Shown here: positions 30,027 through 38,931 of the stretch, one piece after another | Layout of the letters: each line of letters opens with the position of its first letter | Position numbering within the stretch: position 1 is the first letter of the stretch | Origin: Paenibacillus sp. G2S3 | GTDB taxonomy: Bacteria; Bacillota; Bacilli; Paenibacillales; Paenibacillaceae | DNA: 64,000 nt | Assembly (NCBI RefSeq): GCF_030123105.1 | Contig: NZ_CP126095.1 | Coordinates: 3,782,001-3,846,000 of the forward strand | Direction of reading: 5' to 3' | The notes under the pieces: generated by a model | What the model saw: the letters and a program-made list of their open reading frames with translations, nothing else | What the model was told of the DNA's origin: nothing | Databases searched by the model: none | Translations under genes and position numbers: made by a program

Positions 30027-30080
30027 AAAGTAGAGCAGCAATCTCCACTATCGAGAGAATCGCTGCTCTACTTTATTTTT
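30027..30080. terminator. Bidirectional terminator between DUF441 and anti-sigma genes
   Basis: AAAGTAGAGCAGC pairs with GCTGCTCTACTTT around a long loop; T-rich TTTATTTTT follows on the plus strand and TTTTGTG on the minus strand. Confidence 0.8.
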
Positions 30081-31026
30081 ATTCAGCCTGAGAAATGGAC
30101 TGTGGAATTTCCTGAGATGAACGTTTTTCTACAAATAGCAAATCACCAACACCATACTCTGCTTGAATTTTTTTCAACTGATCCAAAGCTTCTGCTTCTG
30201 TATTGAAATACCCAGCTTCCACTAGGAATAATCCCTTCTGATCCTTTAATACGCGCACGTTCTCTAACCCGAACAACATCTCTTCAGCCATGCCTTGACT
30301 CTCGCCGGAAGGCTCTGAGACCGTTCTAAGTGAATAGATAGAAGTTCCTTCCCCCACGTCACCCTTCTTATCCTTCAATGTGATTGCCACCTGAGCTGGT
30401 TCCTTGTATTCCTTCACCTCATAAGCGACTGGCTCTTTGAAGGTTACATTGAAACGTATCATCGAGTCATCCAATGTAATTAAAGGATAAGCATCTTGAA
30501 CATACTTGCTTTCTTTTAATGTCTCAATATCTTTAACAGCTGAGAAGTTCCTTGCCCCACTCACGGTTACGGTCATTGTATAAGGATTGTCTGTAAATTT
30601 TACGTTATAAGAGCTTGCAAGGTCTTGTGTATTATCCGAATTTGCAAAGTTCAAAATCATTTGATCACTGTTCTTCTGATGTTTCAACGAAATAAAATTC
30701 ACATCTACTCCATCCTGTATCGTACCGCCGCCTGCACTTCCATCCGTAAATTTCAATACACTTACCAGCTTACCGAGAACTGGCACTTGATTCATACTAT
30801 CTGCAAAAGCGGGTACTGTATTAACACCCACTGTAAAAGAAATGATAACTGCTGCTGCAACTGATCCTGTCCATTTTAATCCGCTCATTTTTATTCCTCT
30901 TTTCTGTTGTTTATAACGTCTTCCTCTTTCAATACCTTTACGAGAAGCTTGTGATAGTTCTTCAGGGATTTCAATATCGTTGTATGCATTCTGTAAACGT
31001 TCATGTTGATTATCCAAAGTACTCAC
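30079..31026 (-). CDS. Membrane-anchored DUF4179 protein, likely anti-sigma factor
   Basis: 315 residues if started at GTG 31026, overlapping the sigma gene by 17 bp; TTG 31017 is better spaced from AAGGGG, so the true start is one of the two. About 45 cytoplasmic residues, a single helix (GSVAAAVIISFTVGVNTVPAFA) and a large outer domain resembling DUF4179, ending in a SPOR-like segment (LVEAGYFNTEAEALDQLKKIQAEYG). By position and layout I infer a regulator that holds the adjacent sigma factor inactive. It could also respond to cell-wall fragments through the SPOR-like end. Confidence 0.78.
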   Translation of the reverse strand: MSTLDNQHERLQNAYNDIEIPEELSQASRKGIERGRRYKQQKRGIKMSGLKWTGSVAAAVIISFTVGVNTVPAFADSMNQVPVLGKLVSVLKFTDGSAGGGTIQDGVDVNFISLKHQKNSDQMILNFANSDNTQDLASSYNVKFTDNPYTMTVTVSGARNFSAVKDIETLKESKYVQDAYPLITLDDSMIRFNVTFKEPVAYEVKEYKEPAQVAITLKDKKGDVGEGTSIYSLRTVSEPSGESQGMAEEMLFGLENVRVLKDQKGLFLVEAGYFNTEAEALDQLKKIQAEYGVGDLLFVEKRSSQEIPQSISQAE

Positions 31027-31546
31027 TCCCCTTCATATTAATTTTTAATTTTCCTAAACCCCGATAGATAACGGTCTTCACTGTACTCTCTGGCATGTCC
31101 AATACCCCGGCAATTTCCTTTATGGGCAAGTCTTCAAAATATCTCATCACAATGATCATTCTTGATCTTTTATCAAGGACTCTTAACGCCTCCTGTAGAT
31201 CAATGACGTCCTCTATAGGTTCTGAAGCGTAACTACCTTCGGGATTTTTCTCCATATAGACGATTCTTTTAGATTTCCGGATAAAGTCCAAGGCACAATT
31301 GACGGCTATTTTTGTGAGCCAGGTTTTAAAATATTGAGGTTGCTGCAGTTTATGAATAGAGATGTACGCTTTGTAGACGGTCTCCTGCACAATCTCCAGC
31401 GCATCATCCTTATTCCTCACATAGGAGTATGCCATACGGTAAAGTCGCTCCTGCATCCCATCTATCAGTGCAGTAAAGCTGTCTTCATCACCCGCTATCG
31501 CCTTTTCCTCCAGCTCTGTTGTATTCAAGTTCTCACTACCTTTCAT
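31010..31546 (-). CDS. ECF-type sigma-70 family factor
   Basis: 178 residues from ATG 31546. Region 2 (ERLYRMAYSYVRNKDDALEIVQETVYKAY, KTWLTKIAVNCALDFIRK) and region 4 (DLPIKEIAGVLDMPESTVKTVIYRGLGKL) are clear. No strong ribosome site precedes the ATG, and a TTG 45 nt upstream is an alternative. Paired and overlapping with the DUF4179 gene. Confidence 0.88.
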   Translation of the reverse strand: MKGSENLNTTELEEKAIAGDEDSFTALIDGMQERLYRMAYSYVRNKDDALEIVQETVYKAYISIHKLQQPQYFKTWLTKIAVNCALDFIRKSKRIVYMEKNPEGSYASEPIEDVIDLQEALRVLDKRSRMIIVMRYFEDLPIKEIAGVLDMPESTVKTVIYRGLGKLKINMKGSEYFG

Positions 31547-31559
31547 GTTGCTTATATTT

Positions 31560-31590
31560 TTTAGACGCACTTGATATTCAAAAAGACTCA
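31560..31590 (-). promoter_or_regulatory. Possible autoregulatory ECF promoter
   Basis: On the minus strand, upstream of ATG 31546, TGAGTC and CGTCTA are separated by about 17 nt. CGTC is a typical -10 core of ECF factors; the -35 is a weak match. Confidence 0.3.
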
Positions 31591-31600
31591 AATGGGTTTA

Positions 31601-31662: not shown

Positions 31663-33411
31663 TCATGTATCCAAATGCTGTACGTTAAACAATCTCGCAT
31701 AACTTCCATCTAGCCCCATCAGTTCTTCATGTGTACCACGTTCTGTAATTTCACCATTCTCAAGCACAACGATCTGATCCGCATGTGTAATGGTAGACAG
31801 CCTATGCGCAACAATAAGTGTAGTACGTTCCGACGAGAGAGATTGCAGCGCTTGTTGAATTAAATGCTCTGATTCCAGATCCAGCGCTGACGTAGCTTCG
31901 TCTAAAATAAGAACCTTAGGGTCTTTAAGAAACACCCTTGCTATGGCAACCCGTTGCTTTTGCCCGCCGGACAGCTTCACTCCACGTTCTCCCACCTCTG
32001 TGTCATAGCCTAGCGGCAGCTGCTCAATAAAATCATGTGCGTTCGCAGCTTTCGCAGCAGATAGGACTTCCTCCTCTGTAGCATTAGGATTACCGAACAA
32101 AATATTATCTCGTACAGATCCACTAAATAAGAAGTTATCTTGAAGTACCATCCCAACAGCTCTTCGTAAACTCTCTTGCGTCAAACCTTGTATATCCTGA
32201 CCATCCATCTGGAGGCTACCTTTGCTGATGTCATAGAATCGCGGGATCAAGCTGATGAGAGAGGACTTTCCACCACCACTCATTCCGACAAAAGCGACCG
32301 TCTGTCCAGGTTTAATACTTAAATTGATATCCTTCAGTACCCAATCATTCTCTTCGTTGTATTTGAACCATACATTATGAAAATCAATTTCACCTCTTGC
32401 ATTCGTCAGAGGTCTCGCTCCCGGTTTATCCACGATATCATAAGGCTCTTCTAGCAGCTCAAGCACCCGTTCAAGGGAAGCCGAAGCTTGTGTAAGCACT
32501 GTCGAGGAATTAATTAATCGCCGCAACGGCGCATACATCCGGTCAAGATAGCCGAAGAAAGCAACAAAGGTTCCGACTGTCAAATTGCCATGAATCACTT
32601 GATAACCACCGTATCCGATGACTAGCAGTGGTGCAATATCCGTTAATGTGTTAATAATCGCGAAGGTAATCGCGTTCCAACGGGTTTGAGCCATCGCTTT
32701 TTTGAGAAAGTTACCGTTAATATCTTCAAACTGCTTCTGATCCACTTTTTCCATGGTGAAGCTGCGAATGATCGATATGCCTTGAATCCGTTCATGAAGA
32801 TAGCCTTGAATGCCTGCCAGAGCTTGTGAACGGTCTTTGGTTAACACCTTAAGTCGTTTATATAGTTTACTTACCGCAAAGGCGTAAAATGGAAGGACAG
32901 CGATAGATACTAGCGCCAGTACCGGATTTAAATAAAACATAAACCCGAGCGCAAACACTAGCGTAAATAAATCCAGCCATACATTCATCATTCCGACTTC
33001 TACTAAATTTTTAGTCTGTTCTACATCATTTATAAATCTCGAAATCGCTTCGCCCACTTTTGTATTCTGATAATACCTTAGCGACAACCGCTGTAAGTGA
33101 CTGTATAGCTTGTTCCGCATATCGAACAATATCTTGCTTGTAATCAACTGGGCAAAATACTGCCGGTAATATTCTACCGGTCCCCTTACAATGACGAATA
33201 AAACAAAAGCGCCCCCGAGGATGAGCATCAATTGGGATACCCGCTCCTCAACACTCATGGCAGGGTTCATCAGCAGGTCATCAACTACGTATTTCAGAAT
33301 CATAGGCAGTGTCAACGGGATGCTGAACTTGATCATGCCTATACAGAGCGTAAATACAATCCATTTCATGTAAGGACGTACAAAAGTAAAATATGATTTC
33401 CATTGCTTCAC
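31663..33411 (-). CDS. ABC exporter, fused permease/ATPase (MsbA/BmrA-like)
   Basis: 582 residues starting at GTG 33411 (AAAGGA upstream at about 12 nt). Six membrane helices in the first 310 residues; ATPase domain with Walker A GMSGGGKSS, signature LSGGQKQRVAIAR, Walker B VLILDEATSALD with catalytic Glu, and H-loop AHRLST. Both catalytic sites are canonical, so it probably works as a homodimer. Exports lipid or drug-like substrates; specificity not visible. Confidence 0.92.
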   Translation of the reverse strand: MKQWKSYFTFVRPYMKWIVFTLCIGMIKFSIPLTLPMILKYVVDDLLMNPAMSVEERVSQLMLILGGAFVLFVIVRGPVEYYRQYFAQLITSKILFDMRNKLYSHLQRLSLRYYQNTKVGEAISRFINDVEQTKNLVEVGMMNVWLDLFTLVFALGFMFYLNPVLALVSIAVLPFYAFAVSKLYKRLKVLTKDRSQALAGIQGYLHERIQGISIIRSFTMEKVDQKQFEDINGNFLKKAMAQTRWNAITFAIINTLTDIAPLLVIGYGGYQVIHGNLTVGTFVAFFGYLDRMYAPLRRLINSSTVLTQASASLERVLELLEEPYDIVDKPGARPLTNARGEIDFHNVWFKYNEENDWVLKDINLSIKPGQTVAFVGMSGGGKSSLISLIPRFYDISKGSLQMDGQDIQGLTQESLRRAVGMVLQDNFLFSGSVRDNILFGNPNATEEEVLSAAKAANAHDFIEQLPLGYDTEVGERGVKLSGGQKQRVAIARVFLKDPKVLILDEATSALDLESEHLIQQALQSLSSERTTLIVAHRLSTITHADQIVVLENGEITERGTHEELMGLDGSYARLFNVQHLDT

Positions 33412-33535: not shown

Positions 33536-34051
33536 ATGTCTAGACAATTTGTGACGGAAGCCGTCATGATGGCGATTTACGGCCAGCTTCTCATATCGAG
33601 CAGCCCTGTAGAATATATAGTGCCTTATACGACTGTGATGGAATTATACGAACTGCGGGATAGTGATGATCCGTTAATGAACCGTCCAGATGATGACAAG
33701 CATGTCAAACTCAAGATTGGTGAGCTCATTGCCTATTTCGAAGAGCCACTTAATGCTAAAAAAATCAACCGCTGTCTGGCCGTTCCTTGGGCAAAAAGCT
33801 CCGGTATTCTATTAGGCGGACAATCAAAGATTACCATCATTAACAGCATGGATACCGCCGTTTACGGCGAAACGTTCGATCCTATCGAAACGGAGCTCCT
33901 ATTGTCCTCTCAACGTGAGAAGGTGCCTATTCTTACCGACCAATTCGAGCTGATTCAACGCATTATTGAAGGTGGAGTCCCTGTTCAAGTATACGACATC
34001 GACGATTTCGATTTTGCTATGGAGGAAGAAACGTTTCACAATTCGCACTGA
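33536..34051 (+). CDS. Conserved hypothetical protein
   Basis: 171 residues, ATG with CAGGAGG. Soluble, mixed alpha/beta, acidic C-terminus (DIDDFDFAMEEE). I do not recognise a catalytic motif; proteins of this layout may carry an ADP-heptose synthase name in databases, for which nothing in the sequence gives support. The start QFVTEAVMMAIYGQLL and the block GELIAYFEEPLNAKKINRCL may be useful search seeds. Stands alone between two terminators. Confidence 0.7.
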   Translation: MSRQFVTEAVMMAIYGQLLISSSPVEYIVPYTTVMELYELRDSDDPLMNRPDDDKHVKLKIGELIAYFEEPLNAKKINRCLAVPWAKSSGILLGGQSKITIINSMDTAVYGETFDPIETELLLSSQREKVPILTDQFELIQRIIEGGVPVQVYDIDDFDFAMEEETFHNSH

Positions 34052-34066
34052 TTATATCAACGTAGA

Positions 34067-34096
34067 AAAAGCCCCTGCCTTTTGGCAAGGGCTTTT
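34067..34096 (+). terminator. Terminator after the 171-codon gene
   Basis: AAGCCCCTGCC-TTTT-GGCAAGGGCTT followed by TTCATC; A-run on the other side could make it bidirectional. Confidence 0.75.
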
Positions 34097-34125
34097 CATC
34101 ATCAGTTAAAAAAGAATTAAGACTT

Positions 34126-34443
34126 TTATACCTCTACTTCACCAGGTACCAACTTGGCTTCATACTTATATTCAATGTCATCCTCTGCCTCAGAATACAC
34201 AATAGTTAAGCCGTAGCCTTCCATATACCATAAGTCCTGCTCCTCCATGTAGAACAAAATACCGTCTTGTTCAACCTGTATTGCCGGTCGTGCAGGAGCC
34301 TCTGTTGCGATCCCTAGTGAGAAGCCAGGGTGAAGTCCACCTCCCGAGCTATAGCGGGGAAATAAACGAATATAGTCTCCATTGTTAAGATCCAGTTCTC
34401 TTTTAAACCAAGCTGCCGCTGCTTGACTAATTTCCATGTTCAT
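34126..34443 (-). CDS. HesB/YneR-like protein
   Basis: 105 residues with AAGGAG upstream. The fold pattern (ISQAAAAWFKRELDL, YIRLFPRYSSGGGLHPGFSLGI, ILFYMEEQDLWY) follows the HesB/IscA-like domain of the YneR type. The three conserved iron-sulfur Cys of IscA are absent (no Cys at all), so it is unlikely to be an Fe-S carrier. Function unknown. Confidence 0.75.
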   Translation of the reverse strand: MNMEISQAAAAWFKRELDLNNGDYIRLFPRYSSGGGLHPGFSLGIATEAPARPAIQVEQDGILFYMEEQDLWYMEGYGLTIVYSEAEDDIEYKYEAKLVPGEVEV

Positions 34444-34543
34444 TTCTCTCAGCTCCTTTGTATAGTCTAATCATACTGAAAATGAATCGATATTCAAATA
34501 CCTTTATACAATTAATGTTTTCCCAAGCCCCTCAAAAATTAGT

Positions 34544-34573
34544 TTGACAACTTTGCGAAGCGAGTGATAAACT
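34544..34573 (+). promoter_or_regulatory. Promoter of the bmr-type leader and exporter operon
   Basis: Perfect -35 TTGACA (34544-34549), 18-nt spacer, TAAACT (34568-34573). It is followed at 34580-34602 by the inverted repeat ATAACTA-N9-TAGTTAT, which would sit at the transcript start and could be an operator or a 5' stem. Confidence 0.65.
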
Positions 34574-34579
34574 CTGAAC

Positions 34580-34602
34580 ATAACTAACGGTCTACTAGTT
34601 AT
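34580..34602. promoter_or_regulatory. Inverted repeat at the start of the bmr-type transcript
   Basis: ATAACTA (34580-34586) and TAGTTAT (34596-34602) separated by 9 nt; spacing and position just past the -10 suit a repressor site. Confidence 0.4.
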
Positions 34603-34643
34603 TACCAAAAGTTATTATTAAATCAATGAAAGGGGTGAGCGCG

Positions 34644-34736
34644 GTGTTTACGAAGTTACAGCCATATCATATTACTATTGTTGGAATTTCAAATCAACTG
34701 AATACCGAAGCAGCCCAAGTGGTGAAACCATCCTGA
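34644..34736 (+). CDS. Leader peptide upstream of the bmrCD-type exporter genes
   Basis: 30 codons from GTG 34644 (MFTKLQPYHITIVGISNQ at the start), with AAAGGGG eight nt upstream. An in-frame GTG nine nt earlier is too near the ribosome site. The ORF ends about 100 nt before a strong terminator that sits in front of the exporter genes. In B. subtilis, bmrCD is preceded by the leader ORF bmrB and controlled by ribosome-mediated attenuation; order and spacing here match that arrangement. I judge homology by position only, as I could not compare sequences. Confidence 0.7.
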   Translation: MFTKLQPYHITIVGISNQLNTEAAQVVKPS

Positions 34737-34789
34737 AGTTCCCTGCGAGTGTAATTGATCGTATAACTTTAGTTCTTGAAGGTCTCTCA

Positions 34790-34873
34790 CATGCCTGGTG
34801 CTGTATAGCACCGTGCGCATGATAGCTGTAAATTACAGGCATATCGTCCGTTTCCGGATGATATGCCTTTTTT
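34790..34873 (+). promoter_or_regulatory. Transcription attenuator with mutually exclusive hairpins
   Basis: Three pairings compete. (1) CATGC (34790-34794) with GCATG (34817-34821), enclosing GGTGC/GCACC. (2) ATGCCTG (34791-34797) with CAGGCAT (34836-34842). (3) The terminator, AGGCATATCGTCCG (34837-34850) with CGGATGATATGCCT (34855-34868), then six Ts. Pairing 2 uses the 5' arm of the terminator and the 5' arm of hairpin 1, so it would be the antiterminator. Which state forms would depend on ribosome position on the leader ORF. Confidence 0.7.
34837..34873 (+). terminator. Intrinsic terminator of the attenuator
   Basis: A 14-bp stem with one internal G-U, tetraloop TTTC and a T6 tract, 175 bp before the first exporter gene. 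Confidence 0.9.
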
Positions 34874-35047
34874 GTTTAAATATAAGAATTTATATGTTCC
34901 ACGATATAGATTTTCTTATATTTCTTCGAGAAATGGTTGTCATCTTTGATGGATGACAACGTCGTTTCTTGTTGGCTGTTGAGATAACCACTTGCGCTTT
35001 TTTCCAACATCAAAGCTATTACTTTAACTCGAAAGGAAGGGATTTAC

Positions 35048-36796
35048 TTGTTCTCCGTTCTCCGTAATCTCGGCTGGTTCTTTCGCCGAGAAAAAAGGCG
35101 TTACCTGATTGGCCTGATCTTACTTATTGGTGTAGGTGTTCTTGAATTATTCCCCCCACGTCTGCTAGGCAATGCCATTGACGACATAGTACGCGGTTCT
35201 ATTACTACAGCATCATTAGCCAAATATATTGGCATGATCCTCATTTTACTGCTAGTCATTTATTGGATTACCTACATATGGATGCACAAATTATTCGGAG
35301 GCTCCAACCTCGTAGAGCGCCTGCTGCGCTCGAGATTTATGAATCATTTGATGACCATGACCCCTTCGTTTTTCGAACGCAATCGAACGGGTGACCTGAT
35401 GGCTCGGGCAACCAACGATATCAGAGCTGTCTCTGCTACCGTTGGATTCGGGATGCTCACCCTGGTGGATTCTACAATCTACCTTACAGTCGTACTGTTC
35501 GCTATGGGTTTTCTCGTCAGCTGGAAGCTGACTCTTGCAGCGGTATTACCATTACCACTAATTGCGATAGCTATGATTTTTTATGGTAAAGCGATCCATG
35601 ATCGTTACAGCTTAGCACAAGATGCATTCGGAGATATGAATGATCAGGTTCTCGAATCTATCTCAGGTGTGCGGGTTATCCGTGCTTATGTACAAGAGAG
35701 ACTTGATGAGAAGCGTTTCTCGGACATTACAGAAGATGTATACAACAAGAACATGGCCGTCGCCCGTGTCGATGCCTTCTTCGAACCGACGATTCGGTTC
35801 TGCGTAGGACTCAGCTACATTATCGGTCTTACCTATGGGATTTATCTTGTGTTCCGTAATCAGATCACGCTAGGTGATCTTGTCTCCTTCAATATGTACC
35901 TCGGAATGATCGTATGGCCGATGTTCGCCATTGGAGAGCTAATTAACATCATGCAACGTGGTGGTGCCTCTCTCGAACGTATTGATGAGACGCTAAACTC
36001 CAAAGCGGATGTTCAGAGTGCTGCTAACCCGGTTCACGTTGCAAATCCTACCCAAATTGAACTTAACAATGTGACCTTCCGTTATCCTTCATCGACGATT
36101 GACAATCTAACTAATGTCAGCCTGAACCTGAACCAAGGGCAAACACTAGGTGTAGTCGGTCGCACGGGTAGCGGTAAATCAACGCTTCTCAAACAGCTTC
36201 TTAGAGAATATCCGACAGGCAATGGTGAAATTCTCATCTCTGGTGTTCCTATTCAACAGATTTCATTGGATCAACTGCATAGCTGGATGGGTTATGTTCC
36301 TCAAGAACAGATTCTTTTCTCCAAATCAGTACGTCAGAATATTCAATTTGGTCTAGACAACGCGGATGACGATACGATCATGAAAGCCATCACAGCTGCC
36401 GCCTTCCAAAATGACTTAGGAACATTATCCGACGGTCTAGATACGTTGGTTGGTGAACGTGGAGTATCCTTATCCGGTGGACAAAAACAACGTGTATCCT
36501 TATCCAGAGCCTTTATCGCAAATCCAGATGTACTGATTCTGGACGATGCCTTATCCGCTGTTGACGCTCGAACTGAAGCTCAGATCATTGAGAATATTCG
36601 CCAAGAGCGTGCAGGTAAGACTACATTGATCTCTACGCACCGCCTCTCTGCTGTTCAACATGCCGACATGATCGTCGTACTTGATAACGGACATATCGTT
36701 GAACGTGGTACGCATCAGGAGCTATTGGATATGAATGGCTGGTACCGCGAGCAGTATGACCGGCAGCAAGTAGAGAATAATTTATCGAATGATTAA
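35048..36796 (+). CDS. bmrC: ABC multidrug exporter subunit, BmrC/YheI-like
   Basis: 582 residues from TTG 35048 with AGGAAGG upstream. Six membrane helices (residues 1-310) and an ATPase with Walker A GRTGSGKST and signature LSGGQKQRVSLSR. Walker B reads VLILDDALSAVD: Asp replaces the catalytic Glu, as in the degenerate half of heterodimeric exporters such as BmrC. It must work with the next gene product. The pair in Bacillus exports dyes and antibiotics and is induced by translation inhibitors. Confidence 0.9.
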   Translation: MFSVLRNLGWFFRREKRRYLIGLILLIGVGVLELFPPRLLGNAIDDIVRGSITTASLAKYIGMILILLLVIYWITYIWMHKLFGGSNLVERLLRSRFMNHLMTMTPSFFERNRTGDLMARATNDIRAVSATVGFGMLTLVDSTIYLTVVLFAMGFLVSWKLTLAAVLPLPLIAIAMIFYGKAIHDRYSLAQDAFGDMNDQVLESISGVRVIRAYVQERLDEKRFSDITEDVYNKNMAVARVDAFFEPTIRFCVGLSYIIGLTYGIYLVFRNQITLGDLVSFNMYLGMIVWPMFAIGELINIMQRGGASLERIDETLNSKADVQSAANPVHVANPTQIELNNVTFRYPSSTIDNLTNVSLNLNQGQTLGVVGRTGSGKSTLLKQLLREYPTGNGEILISGVPIQQISLDQLHSWMGYVPQEQILFSKSVRQNIQFGLDNADDDTIMKAITAAAFQNDLGTLSDGLDTLVGERGVSLSGGQKQRVSLSRAFIANPDVLILDDALSAVDARTEAQIIENIRQERAGKTTLISTHRLSAVQHADMIVVLDNGHIVERGTHQELLDMNGWYREQYDRQQVENNLSND

Positions 36797-36843
36797 AAGA
36801 CATACTAGCTATGATAATGCAAAACTTTTAGGAGGTGTCACCG

Positions 36844-38931
36844 TTGACAAAGAGTACAGGCAAACGCCTGCTTGAATACGCATTGACCGCAAAAAAAACC
36901 TTTATCGCAGCCCTTATACTCCTCTCCATCGGGGTAGCGGCAGAGCTGGCAGGTCCATTTATCGCCAAAAGCATGATTGACAATCATATGTTGGCCATCG
37001 AAAAGCCTTATTTTAGTACTACATCACCAGATGAGGCGGTTCAGTATAACAACGCTTATTACAAACGCGGAGACCGATTCGAGCCCGGGGAAGCTAAGGG
37101 GCAAGAAATTCGCATTCTTCAATCGGGACGAAGTTTCTACTTTATCAATGAAGCCGTAACACAATCCGATGGTGAAAGAAAGTTCAGTAATGGTGAAATG
37201 CATATCACGCGCGGCCAGGATGAAGTCATCTATCCTGCGGTTAAGCTTTCAGCGGATGAACTGTTTGATTTTTACAAACCTGAGCTCCCTGGTATTTATC
37301 AGCTGGTCGGTTTGTACGCTATCTTCCTAGTCATCTCGATCTTTGCCGAATTCGGTAAAACCTATTGGCTGCAATCTTCGGCGAATCAGGTAATCCGAAA
37401 ACTACGTACAGATGTATATGCGCATATCCAGCGACTTCCGGTTTACTTTTTTGACAACTTGCCAGCAGGTAAGGTAGTGTCACGCGTAACTAATGATACC
37501 GAGGCGATTAAGGATCTATTCATTGCCGTTCTCTCCAATTTCAGTACCGGTATTATTAATATTACTGGTGTATACATCGCCTTGTTCTTGCTCGATGTTC
37601 GGCTAGGTCTGATCAGCTTGTTCATCATCCCAATTCTTATTCTTTGGATCGTGCTCTATCGGAAAATCGCTACCAAATACAATACGATCATCCGCTCACG
37701 TCTGAGTGAGATCAACGCTATCATTAATGAATCGATTCAAGGAATGTCCATTGTTCGTATATTCCGCCGCCAGAAGCAGCTTGGTGAAGAATTTGAGCAT
37801 CTGAACGATGACTACTTGAAATATCAGAATAAAATGCTAAATCTGAATGCCTTCACCTCCCACAACCTAGTGAACTCTCTACGCAGTCTCTCTTTTGTGA
37901 TGGTGCTTTGGTATTTCGGACATGGCAGTATTACGGGTTCTACATTTGTATCTTTAGGTGTTCTGTACGCCTTCGTCGATGTGCTTGGACGTTTGTTCCA
38001 ACCGATTACAGGTATGGTGAATCAGCTCGCAAACCTCGACACATCTATGGTATCTGCGGGTCGTGTATTTACTCTTATGGATGAGCCTGGGGAGAATGTT
38101 ACCGATGGTTCCATGCCGCGCTATAAAGGAAAAGTGGAGTTTAAGAACGTATCTTTTGCTTATAAAAAAGACTTCGTCCTTCGCGATATTTCTTTTGAGG
38201 CACGTCCAGGCGAAACTGTTGCACTAGTCGGTCACACCGGTTCCGGAAAAAGCTCGATTATCAACTTGTTATTCCGGTTCTATGATCCGCAAAAAGGAGA
38301 AATCACGATTGATGGCCAGAAGGTTACAGATATTCCGAAGCAGTGGCTACGCAATCACATGGGGATTGTTCTGCAAGATCCTTACCTCTTCACTGGCACT
38401 ATTGCTTCCAATGTCAGCCTGGGGGATGAACGAATCTCACGCGAACGGGTAGAACGGGCTTTACGGGAAGTCGGAGCAGATAAATTGCTAGCCCACCTTC
38501 CTCAAGGTTTTGATGAACCCGTTATTGAAAAAGGAAGCACCTTATCTGCAGGTCAGCGGCAATTGATTTCTTTTGCCAGAGCGCTCTCCTTCGACCCAGC
38601 TATTCTAATTCTTGATGAAGCTACCTCCAATATCGATACGGAGACAGAAAGCATCATTCAAGATGCACTAGAAGTTCTTAAAAAAGGACGTACCACATTT
38701 ATCATCGCACACCGTCTATCCACGATTCGCAGCGCTGATCAGATTCTTGTTCTGCATCACGGAGAGATTGTAGAGCGCGGAAGCCACGATGAGCTGATGG
38801 CACTCGGCGGCAGATACTTCCGGATGTACCAGCTACAAGTAGGTGCTGGTTCTAACAGTATAGACAATAATAATGGTGCACCCTCCCGACCTTCGTTAGG
38901 CAGCTTGCAACCATCGCTAGAGAAAATGTAA
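36844..38931 (+). CDS. bmrD: ABC multidrug exporter subunit, BmrD/YheH-like
   Basis: 695 residues from TTG 36844, eight nt after AGGAGG; an in-frame GTG inside the ribosome site is less likely. Between helices 1 and 2 there is an insertion of about 100 residues (roughly 55-155, hydrophilic) that is typical of BmrD and extracellular. The ATPase has Walker A GHTGSGKSS, signature LSAGQRQLISFAR and Walker B LILDEATSNID with the catalytic Glu, so it holds the residue its partner lacks. Its start is 47 bp past the bmrC-like stop. Confidence 0.9.
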   Translation: MTKSTGKRLLEYALTAKKTFIAALILLSIGVAAELAGPFIAKSMIDNHMLAIEKPYFSTTSPDEAVQYNNAYYKRGDRFEPGEAKGQEIRILQSGRSFYFINEAVTQSDGERKFSNGEMHITRGQDEVIYPAVKLSADELFDFYKPELPGIYQLVGLYAIFLVISIFAEFGKTYWLQSSANQVIRKLRTDVYAHIQRLPVYFFDNLPAGKVVSRVTNDTEAIKDLFIAVLSNFSTGIINITGVYIALFLLDVRLGLISLFIIPILILWIVLYRKIATKYNTIIRSRLSEINAIINESIQGMSIVRIFRRQKQLGEEFEHLNDDYLKYQNKMLNLNAFTSHNLVNSLRSLSFVMVLWYFGHGSITGSTFVSLGVLYAFVDVLGRLFQPITGMVNQLANLDTSMVSAGRVFTLMDEPGENVTDGSMPRYKGKVEFKNVSFAYKKDFVLRDISFEARPGETVALVGHTGSGKSSIINLLFRFYDPQKGEITIDGQKVTDIPKQWLRNHMGIVLQDPYLFTGTIASNVSLGDERISRERVERALREVGADKLLAHLPQGFDEPVIEKGSTLSAGQRQLISFARALSFDPAILILDEATSNIDTETESIIQDALEVLKKGRTTFIIAHRLSTIRSADQILVLHHGEIVERGSHDELMALGGRYFRMYQLQVGAGSNSIDNNNGAPSRPSLGSLQPSLEKM

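Follow-up and report, generated by a model that had tools for sequence, protein, structure and literature searches.

The transporter genes bmrC and bmrD of Paenibacillus sp. G2S3 are preceded by a short open reading frame and a terminator, and the question that this locus raises is what allows transcription to pass the terminator and reach the genes. We looked for the answer in the window, that is the whole stretch of 64,000 nucleotides that was analysed, which belongs to a 6.70 Mb genome present as a single contig, and in related genomes. The original prediction had taken the exporter genes to be of the bmrCD type, and this assignment is confirmed by the best solved relatives of the two half-transporters (Table 1). 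It had also placed a strong terminator about 175 bp before them, and indeed a 14-pair stem (34837-34868), followed by a T run, lies about 175 bp 5' of the TTG start of bmrC (35048). The leader RNA as a whole is predicted to fold at -87.1 kcal/mol, compared with -67.2 +/- 4.4 kcal/mol for dinucleotide shuffles, and is better than all 200 of them. An intrinsic terminator ahead of a structural gene, with competing pairings upstream of it, is a general feature of ribosome-mediated attenuators and is present here. We consider it very likely that this leader controls bmrCD as an attenuator responding to ribosomes.

Table 1. Features of the bmrCD leader and the transporter genes in Paenibacillus sp. 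G2S3 (positions in the window)
Feature	Position	Strand	Basis
Promoter, TTGACA-N18(TGn)-TAAACT	34544..34573	+	motif scan; same form at the same place in 87/89 genus loci
Shine-Dalgarno stretch of the leader ORF, GAAAGGGGTGAG	34628..34639	+	seen in the sequence; ORF parse over genus loci
Leader ORF, GTG start, 30 codons and stop, MFTKLQPYHITIVGISNQLNTEAAQVVKPS	34644..34736	+	ORF parsed in 88/89 loci
Segment S1, start codon and flank, CGGTGTTTAC, partner S2a	34642..34651	+	partner permutation, column-wise covariation
Segment S2a, CTGAATACCG, partner S1	34698..34707	+	partner permutation, column-wise covariation
Segment S2b, AAGCAGCCCA, partner S3	34708..34717	+	duplex listing and permutation
Segment S3, CATGCCTGGTGCTGT, partner S2b or S4	34790..34804	+	permutation, covariation
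Segment S4, 3' arm of the S3:S4 hairpin, with ATGATA of the proposed antiterminator	34808..34824	+	permutation, alignment, covariation
Segment S5, 5' arm of the terminator, with TATCGT (34842-34847), proposed partner of ATGATA	34837..34850	+	terminator scan, covariation
Segment S6, 3' arm of the terminator and T run	34855..34873	+	terminator scan, covariation
bmrC (yheI) homologue, ABC exporter half-transporter, TTG start	35048..36796	+	best solved relative YheI
bmrD (yheH) homologue, partner half-transporter	36835..38931	+	best solved relative YheH

When the leader DNA (34540-34875) was used as a query against 100 genomes of the genus, it was matched in 95, the own genome counted. As read from the table of matches, 52 extended over most of the query, and the other 43 initially covered the terminator part alone; for these 43 the remaining leader was read from the fetched DNA. 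A bmrC homologue follows downstream in all 90 genus loci that were fetched, representing 90 of the 95 matching genomes. The genus set used below comprises 89 loci: L068 was left out, its bmrC match beginning farther downstream, and the row of L001, a duplicate of L009, was dropped. Segment anchors were placed in all 89 loci, by hand in L063, L075, L078 and L083. A covariance model built from S3 to S6 extended the search and, under strict filters that lose weak matches, found 86 of 295 family genomes, 43 of them in six other genera; in an order-wide sample filtered in the same way it matched 49 of 246 genomes, every listed match belonging to the same family. For the other genera, 36 of the 43 matches were fetched, and bmrC lies downstream in 34 of these 36, spread over four genera, whereas the single fetched matches of two further genera (L149, L152) have no bmrC downstream. 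The predicted conservation of the arrangement beyond Bacillus is thus upheld, and these sequences suggest that the element upstream of bmrC represents a widespread, so far unnamed RNA family that extends beyond the single published attenuator. Among 40 further loci, those devoid of bmrC (L149, L152, L159, L160 and L161) are all weak model matches, with E values of 1.7e-4 to 9.1e-4, and may be chance hits or other attenuators; in L150 and L151 the pattern search gave no S2 anchor.

The relatives also speak for the near-consensus promoter that had been proposed. In G2S3, its -35 element (TTGACA, 34544-34549) and its -10 element (TAAACT, 34568-34573, preceded by TGn) are separated by 18 bp, and as a match in a single sequence it lies within chance, two promoter-like sites being observed and 3.4 expected in shuffles. 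The combination of TTGACA-N18 and TGnTA recurs at this position in 87 of the 89 genus loci, and the remaining two (L061 and L063) contain TTGACA with a slightly different -10 element.

The same holds for the 30-codon leader ORF and its good ribosome site: an ORF of 26-45 codons behind a Shine-Dalgarno sequence was parsed in 88 of the 89 loci, so that conservation of the leader ORF, proposed earlier as a check, is evident. As first parsed, 71 of these ORFs start with GTG and 17 with ATG, four of the latter having later been reset to GTG. Their stop codon lies 3' of the S2 motif in all 88. What is conserved in this ORF? The heptapeptide QLNTEAA is frequent among the leader peptides and could be taken as a sequence-specific arrest peptide, a conserved nascent chain stalling with a particular drug, in which case the RNA pairings would be secondary. 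The QLNTEAA stretch is, however, S2 itself, and in seven of the 88 loci (L070, L074, L075, L083, L084, L090 and L092, which are of like sequence) S2 is read in a different frame while its RNA sequence is kept. Near B. velezensis, L176 has S2 in the ATG frame, and L177 and L178 have it in the +1 frame. A conserved arrest sequence in the nascent leader peptide was accordingly not found, and the peptides listed for the genus loci have, by eye, no common motif outside S1 and S2. It is therefore the RNA and the passage of the ribosome over S2 that appear to be conserved, not the peptide, and we regard an arrest peptide as very unlikely.

Whether the segments listed in Table 1 are really partners of one another was assessed by partner permutation, in which the duplex energies of a locus's own segments are compared with those of segments swapped among 32 genus loci less than 75% identical, in 5000 permutations. 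These tests ignore the tree, so that a part of each z value reflects relatedness, the size of which is shown by the worst control. Own S2:S3 partners reached -13.7 kcal/mol versus -10.9 kcal/mol for swapped ones (z -6.1), and none of the 5000 permutations was as good; the same was true of S3:S4 and S5:S6 (z -5.7 each) and of S1:S2 (z -7.5, or -8.2 after the starts of L054, L067, L069, L085 and L093 had been corrected by hand). Controls were S2:S4 (z -0.6), S2:S5 (-0.05), S3:S6 (+0.2) and S4:S6 (+2.2), with S2:S6 as the worst (-3.2, 8/5000). In the S1:S2 test with corrected starts, the control S1:S3/4, for which S3 and S4 are taken together, gave z -2.3 (46/5000), and the genus controls of the test before correction gave +1.8, -1.95 and -1.1; a control of the family set with a segment ahead of the Shine-Dalgarno sequence was disregarded because its energies are meaningless. 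The values for S2:S6 and S1:S3/4 indicate that relatedness alone yields some signal.

The combined test with S3/4 extends this picture beyond the genus. Over all groups (53 loci), S1:S2 reached z -11.5 and S2:S3/4 -7.1, compared with -1.6 for the control S1:S3/4; S2:S3/4 stood at -5.2 in the 32 genus loci, and 15 further family loci (L137 included) gave -2.3, -3.4 and +0.5, respectively. In six Bacillaceae loci, S1:S2 gave z -2.9 and the control -1.3, while S2:S3/4 was not significant (z -0.6, n=6). Tested separately in 33 loci of other genera, one of which (L137) belongs to the own genus, S1:S2 gave z -2.65 (19/5000).

In strain G2S3, the S2b:S3 duplex consists of GCAGC:GCTGT, a one-base bulge and CCA:TGG. 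Contiguous helices of at least six S2:S3 pairs are found in 19 of 32 genus loci versus 49% of swapped partners; for 33 further family loci the figures are 28 and 70%. By this measure the signal is weak, and the longest contiguous helix is a poor test of this pairing. S3 is misplaced by MAFFT in several clades, and the case for S2:S3 is therefore based on duplex energies, which were permuted without an alignment. S1:S2 could be followed column by column, over nine pairs in 88 distinct windows out of 122 loci. Here 86.4% of the cells are paired, as opposed to 32-45% once one strand is shifted against the other by one to three columns, 39 cells are changed on both sides (9.2 in shuffles), and the covariation score is 0.211 compared with 0.118. 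Two of the five measures were no better than in shuffles, namely how many pairs carry a double change (4 versus 3.9) and how many further pair types occur (12 versus 11.4). In 69 of the 88 rows the start codon's first base forms G-C, in ten A-U and in eight G-U; in one row it is unpaired. The start codon and S2 vary together: 86 of 105 loci with GTG have AATACC, and ten of 13 loci with ATG have AATATG or AATATT. For S3:S4 together with S5:S6, examined in 56 loci less than 92% identical, 88.4% of the cells are paired (98% for the terminator, 78% and 70% for the two portions of S3:S4), and 41 are changed on both sides compared with 11.6 in shuffles. Taken together, these comparisons show that S1:S2, S2:S3, S3:S4 and S5:S6 covary among relatives. 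Three competing pairings had originally been envisaged; of these, the terminator S5:S6 covaries and the pairing of ATGCCTG with CAGGCAT does not. S1:S2 and S2:S3 had gone unseen.

The pairing of ATGCCTG with CAGGCAT had been cast as the antiterminator of a simple attenuator, which would form, and block the terminator, when a ribosome stalls on the leader. The seven-base complementarity does exist in strain G2S3 (34791-34797 with 34836-34842), but it is not kept among relatives: own partners (S3:S5) gave z +1.3, with 4557 of 5000 permutations as good, and CATGCC is replaced by CATGTC (e.g., in L027) or CTGGCC (L048) while CAGGCAT is retained. A ribosome on the ORF, which stops at 34736, is moreover too far upstream to cover position 34791. 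We give this mechanism hardly any credence.

A better candidate for the antiterminator would be S4:S5, in which ATGATA (34819-34824) is complementary to TATCGT, giving six pairs plus a variable inner part. Covariation of S4:S5 was not observed in the 32 loci (z +3.3, own partners worse than swapped ones); as ATGATA:TATCRT is almost invariant in the genus, the pairing is not demonstrable by covariation. The sister genus has another S4 sequence that, by eye, again fits S5, with ATATG facing CATAT. The terminator arms are strongly conserved in sequence, which is what a second partner for one of them would lead one to expect. So unusual a conservation could also be that of a ligand-binding riboswitch or a protein-binding terminator next to an incidental short ORF. 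Against this, 88 of 89 loci retain the Shine-Dalgarno sequence, the start codon and an open frame over S2, and the published B. subtilis counterpart is reported to require leader translation (PMC4191407). Neither did Rfam 15 return any family for the G2S3 leader at E values up to 5 (sub-threshold matches occurred solely at 34013-34135, outside the leader), nor were there matches at the gathering score in nine loci. An explanation of this kind is improbable in the extreme.

The proposed antiterminator S4:S5 and the covarying pairings can be joined into a chain of six RNA segments in which neighbours can pair, and the leader would then be a transcription attenuator that reads the position of the ribosome on the short ORF. 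The OFF state would consist of S1:S2, S3:S4 and S5:S6, the ON state of S2:S3 and S4:S5. If the ORF is untranslated, S2 would fold onto the start codon, leaving S3 to pair with S4 and the terminator S5:S6 to form; a ribosome moving freely through the ORF would cover S2, with the same OFF outcome. A ribosome held on the first codons, for example by a drug acting on early elongation, would instead cover S1 and leave S2 exposed, whereupon free S2 would take S3, S4 would pair with S5, the terminator would be blocked and bmrCD transcribed. The signal would thus be a ribosome arrested near the leader start, and the inducers would be translation inhibitors of the 50S type, as published for B. subtilis bmrCD. 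We think that the six-segment chain is probably correct in its main features, and the pairings suggest that it is longer than the chain published for the related Bacillus system.

Folding with ribosome footprints was in line with these states when it was carried out stepwise. With S3 just made, at least four S2:S3 pairs formed in 81 of 89 loci when the footprint was at the start, in none when it was on S2 and in 57 when there was no ribosome. With S2:S3 held, S4:S5 averaged 5.0 pairs compared with 2.2 with a ribosome on S2, and was higher in 60 of 89 loci. At equilibrium, the states were poorly separated, with mean S4:S5 pairs of 3.0 (naked), 2.7 (stalled at the start) and 2.2 (S2 covered), and S2:S3 exceeded S3:S4 in only 28 of 89 stalled loci. 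The small contrast at equilibrium, set against the stepwise result, favours a kinetic, co-transcriptional reading, although these models do not prove it.

Because S1:S2a and S2b:S3 barely overlap in the genus, both may form together, and the untranslated state is uncertain. A version with five segments builds on this compatibility: S1:S2 would merely tune leader initiation, the untranslated leader would be ON by way of S2b:S3, and OFF would require a ribosome moving over S2. The covariation of S2:S3, S3:S4 and S5:S6 and the 57 loci that form S2:S3 without a ribosome agree with it. S1:S2, on the other hand, has some of the strongest support of all the pairings and changes with the start codon, and the naked transcript, once extended to S5, favours S3:S4 with 8.0 pairs over S2:S3 with 1.8. 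A model without S1 also predicts an untranslated leader to be ON, against the published finding that the untranslated B. subtilis leader is low and uninducible (PMC4191407); it was therefore replaced once S1:S2 had been seen, and we consider it unlikely.

The six-segment chain invites a comparison with B. subtilis, where the bmrB leader precedes homologous exporter genes and has a leader ORF, as in G2S3, followed by anti-antiterminator, antiterminator and terminator (Reilman et al. 2014, PMC4191407), to which S3:S4, the candidate S4:S5 and S5:S6 would correspond. The ORF published there, as described, is a 53-codon GTG frame that contains the terminator, whereas the 30-codon ORF of G2S3 stops at 34736, about 100 nt before the terminator stem; a terminator inside the leader ORF is thus absent in G2S3. 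The structures predicted for bmrB occupy nucleotides 60-162 in that account; S1:S2 and S2:S3 are located 5' of this region or extend past it. A scan of Bacillus and relatives yielded 19 loci with bmrC, none of them named as B. subtilis. One of them, from B. inaquosorum (L169, region L169:779-1200), has a GTG frame of 53 codons ending 119 bp 5' of bmrC and fits the published bmrB, which is given as 162 bp ending 119 bp upstream of bmrC (PMC4191407). Its GTG is preceded at six bases by a weaker Shine-Dalgarno-like AAGGA, while an ATG ORF in another frame has GGAAGGAGGG. Among the seven loci L169-L175, the GTG is kept in four and the published type of frame runs through the terminator in three, so that a terminator within the ORF may not be a true defining feature; the ATG ORF of 23-26 codons with a strong Shine-Dalgarno sequence is present in all seven. 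An ATG ORF of this kind, of 23-31 codons, occurs in 15 of 18 loci of Bacillus relatives; by pattern it is absent in L183-L185 in both scans and in L187 in the folding scan.

In these relatives, the Shine-Dalgarno sequence and start of the short ORF can pair with S2. In L169, their duplex with sequence farther along the ORF has -29.5 kcal/mol compared with -14.4 kcal/mol for shuffled sequence, and S1:S2 in the 15 loci with the ATG ORF gave z -1.4 to -6.4. An S2:S3 pairing can be drawn in Bacillus relatives and is no better than in shuffled sequence (z -1.5 to +0.4). To the eye, L176-L178 have an S2 motif similar to the Paenibacillus one (CTRAATAYCGGCGTRAC), and the frame in which it is read differs among them. 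Judged by their sequences, the relatives of B. subtilis share the S1:S2 design, and from this comparison we lean slightly towards the view that in B. subtilis the 53-codon frame taken as BmrB is not the right one. Published experiments bear on this in two ways. Removal of leader translation, by mutation of the GTG, an added stop and four upstream changes that remove other starts or ribosome-binding sites, is reported to lower expression and abolish induction (PMC4191407), which the six-segment model accounts for if the untranslated leader is held OFF by S1:S2; these mutations may have hit the ATG ORF as well. The same paper reports that an in-frame BmrB-GFP fusion was fluorescent from a plasmid, though not from the chromosome, and the plasmid result counts against a wrong frame. 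Of the bmrB-type logic assumed at the outset, the attenuator build and the conserved leader ORF stand, whereas the assumed antiterminator does not, and the published 53-codon model is poorly conserved in the relatives fetched. The far-reaching reading that bmrCD operons of Bacillales share one RNA switch sensing ribosomes at the first codons, with the start codon and ribosome-binding site as one arm of a six-segment chain, that the 53-codon BmrB frame is wrong and that the real sensor is a 23-codon ATG ORF masked by S2 is put forward tentatively, its chances being a shade below even.

Several features of the neighbourhood were recorded alongside. Between terminator and bmrC (34863-34974) lies an interspersed repeat made of two adjacent hairpins (AAATATAAGAA..TTCTTATATTT and GTTGTCATC..GATGACAAC), with at least some 40 further matches on both strands of the own genome that are 72-94% identical (40 candidates scored). 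In close relatives, the terminator starts 209, 152 or 112 bases before bmrC, as if repeat units had been gained or lost. At 34013-34135, between two converging ORFs, there is a strong hairpin (GCCCCTGCCTTTTGGCAAGGGC) with T-rich flanks, to which several unrelated Rfam sRNA models match below threshold and which is probably a bidirectional terminator. On the minus strand near bmrCD, a second ABC exporter half (31663-33411) is MsbA-like by NCBIfam, under the model cut-off, and two overlapping minus-strand ORFs (30079-31591) resemble, by eye, an ECF sigma factor (193 aa) and an anti-sigma-like partner (315 aa).

The attenuator of the enterobacterial his operon is, like the one proposed here, a chain of six segments whose neighbours pair alternatively; it differs from the bmrCD leader in sensing charged tRNA-His and in the genes it controls. 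In attenuators of the ermK/ermC type, stalling depends on the sequence of the peptide and on position. In these attenuators a ribosome stalled by a drug on the leader ORF makes room for another pairing (PMC5418344, PMC4191407), as is proposed for the bmrCD leader; they differ from it in that a conserved arrest peptide was not seen in the bmrCD leaders studied here. The vmlR leader of B. subtilis is described as having an upstream ORF, an anti-antiterminator, an antiterminator and a terminator, with induction by antibiotic-stalled ribosomes, and also a hairpin sequestering the Shine-Dalgarno sequence (PMC9226507); its ORF lies within the anti-antiterminator hairpin, whereas that of G2S3 is located upstream and would act via the additional S2. 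In the open-licence literature of PubMed Central, as represented by titles and the openings of abstracts, no description of such a leader in Paenibacillus or of a revised bmrB frame was found.

With these results, one published attenuator becomes a widespread RNA family whose parts can be tested singly. The model offers a role for the anti-antiterminator, which is termed unclear in the B. subtilis study (PMC4191407), and raises the possibility that the leader ORF was read there in the wrong frame. It predicts that the signal is the position at which the ribosome stops, not the peptide that it makes. In B. subtilis, bmrCD is reported to be induced by lincomycin, erythromycin and chloramphenicol, while kanamycin and gentamicin do not induce it (PMC4191407); if true, a shared switch that senses ribosomes at the start would explain why drugs acting on early elongation induce these exporters and misreading aminoglycosides do not.
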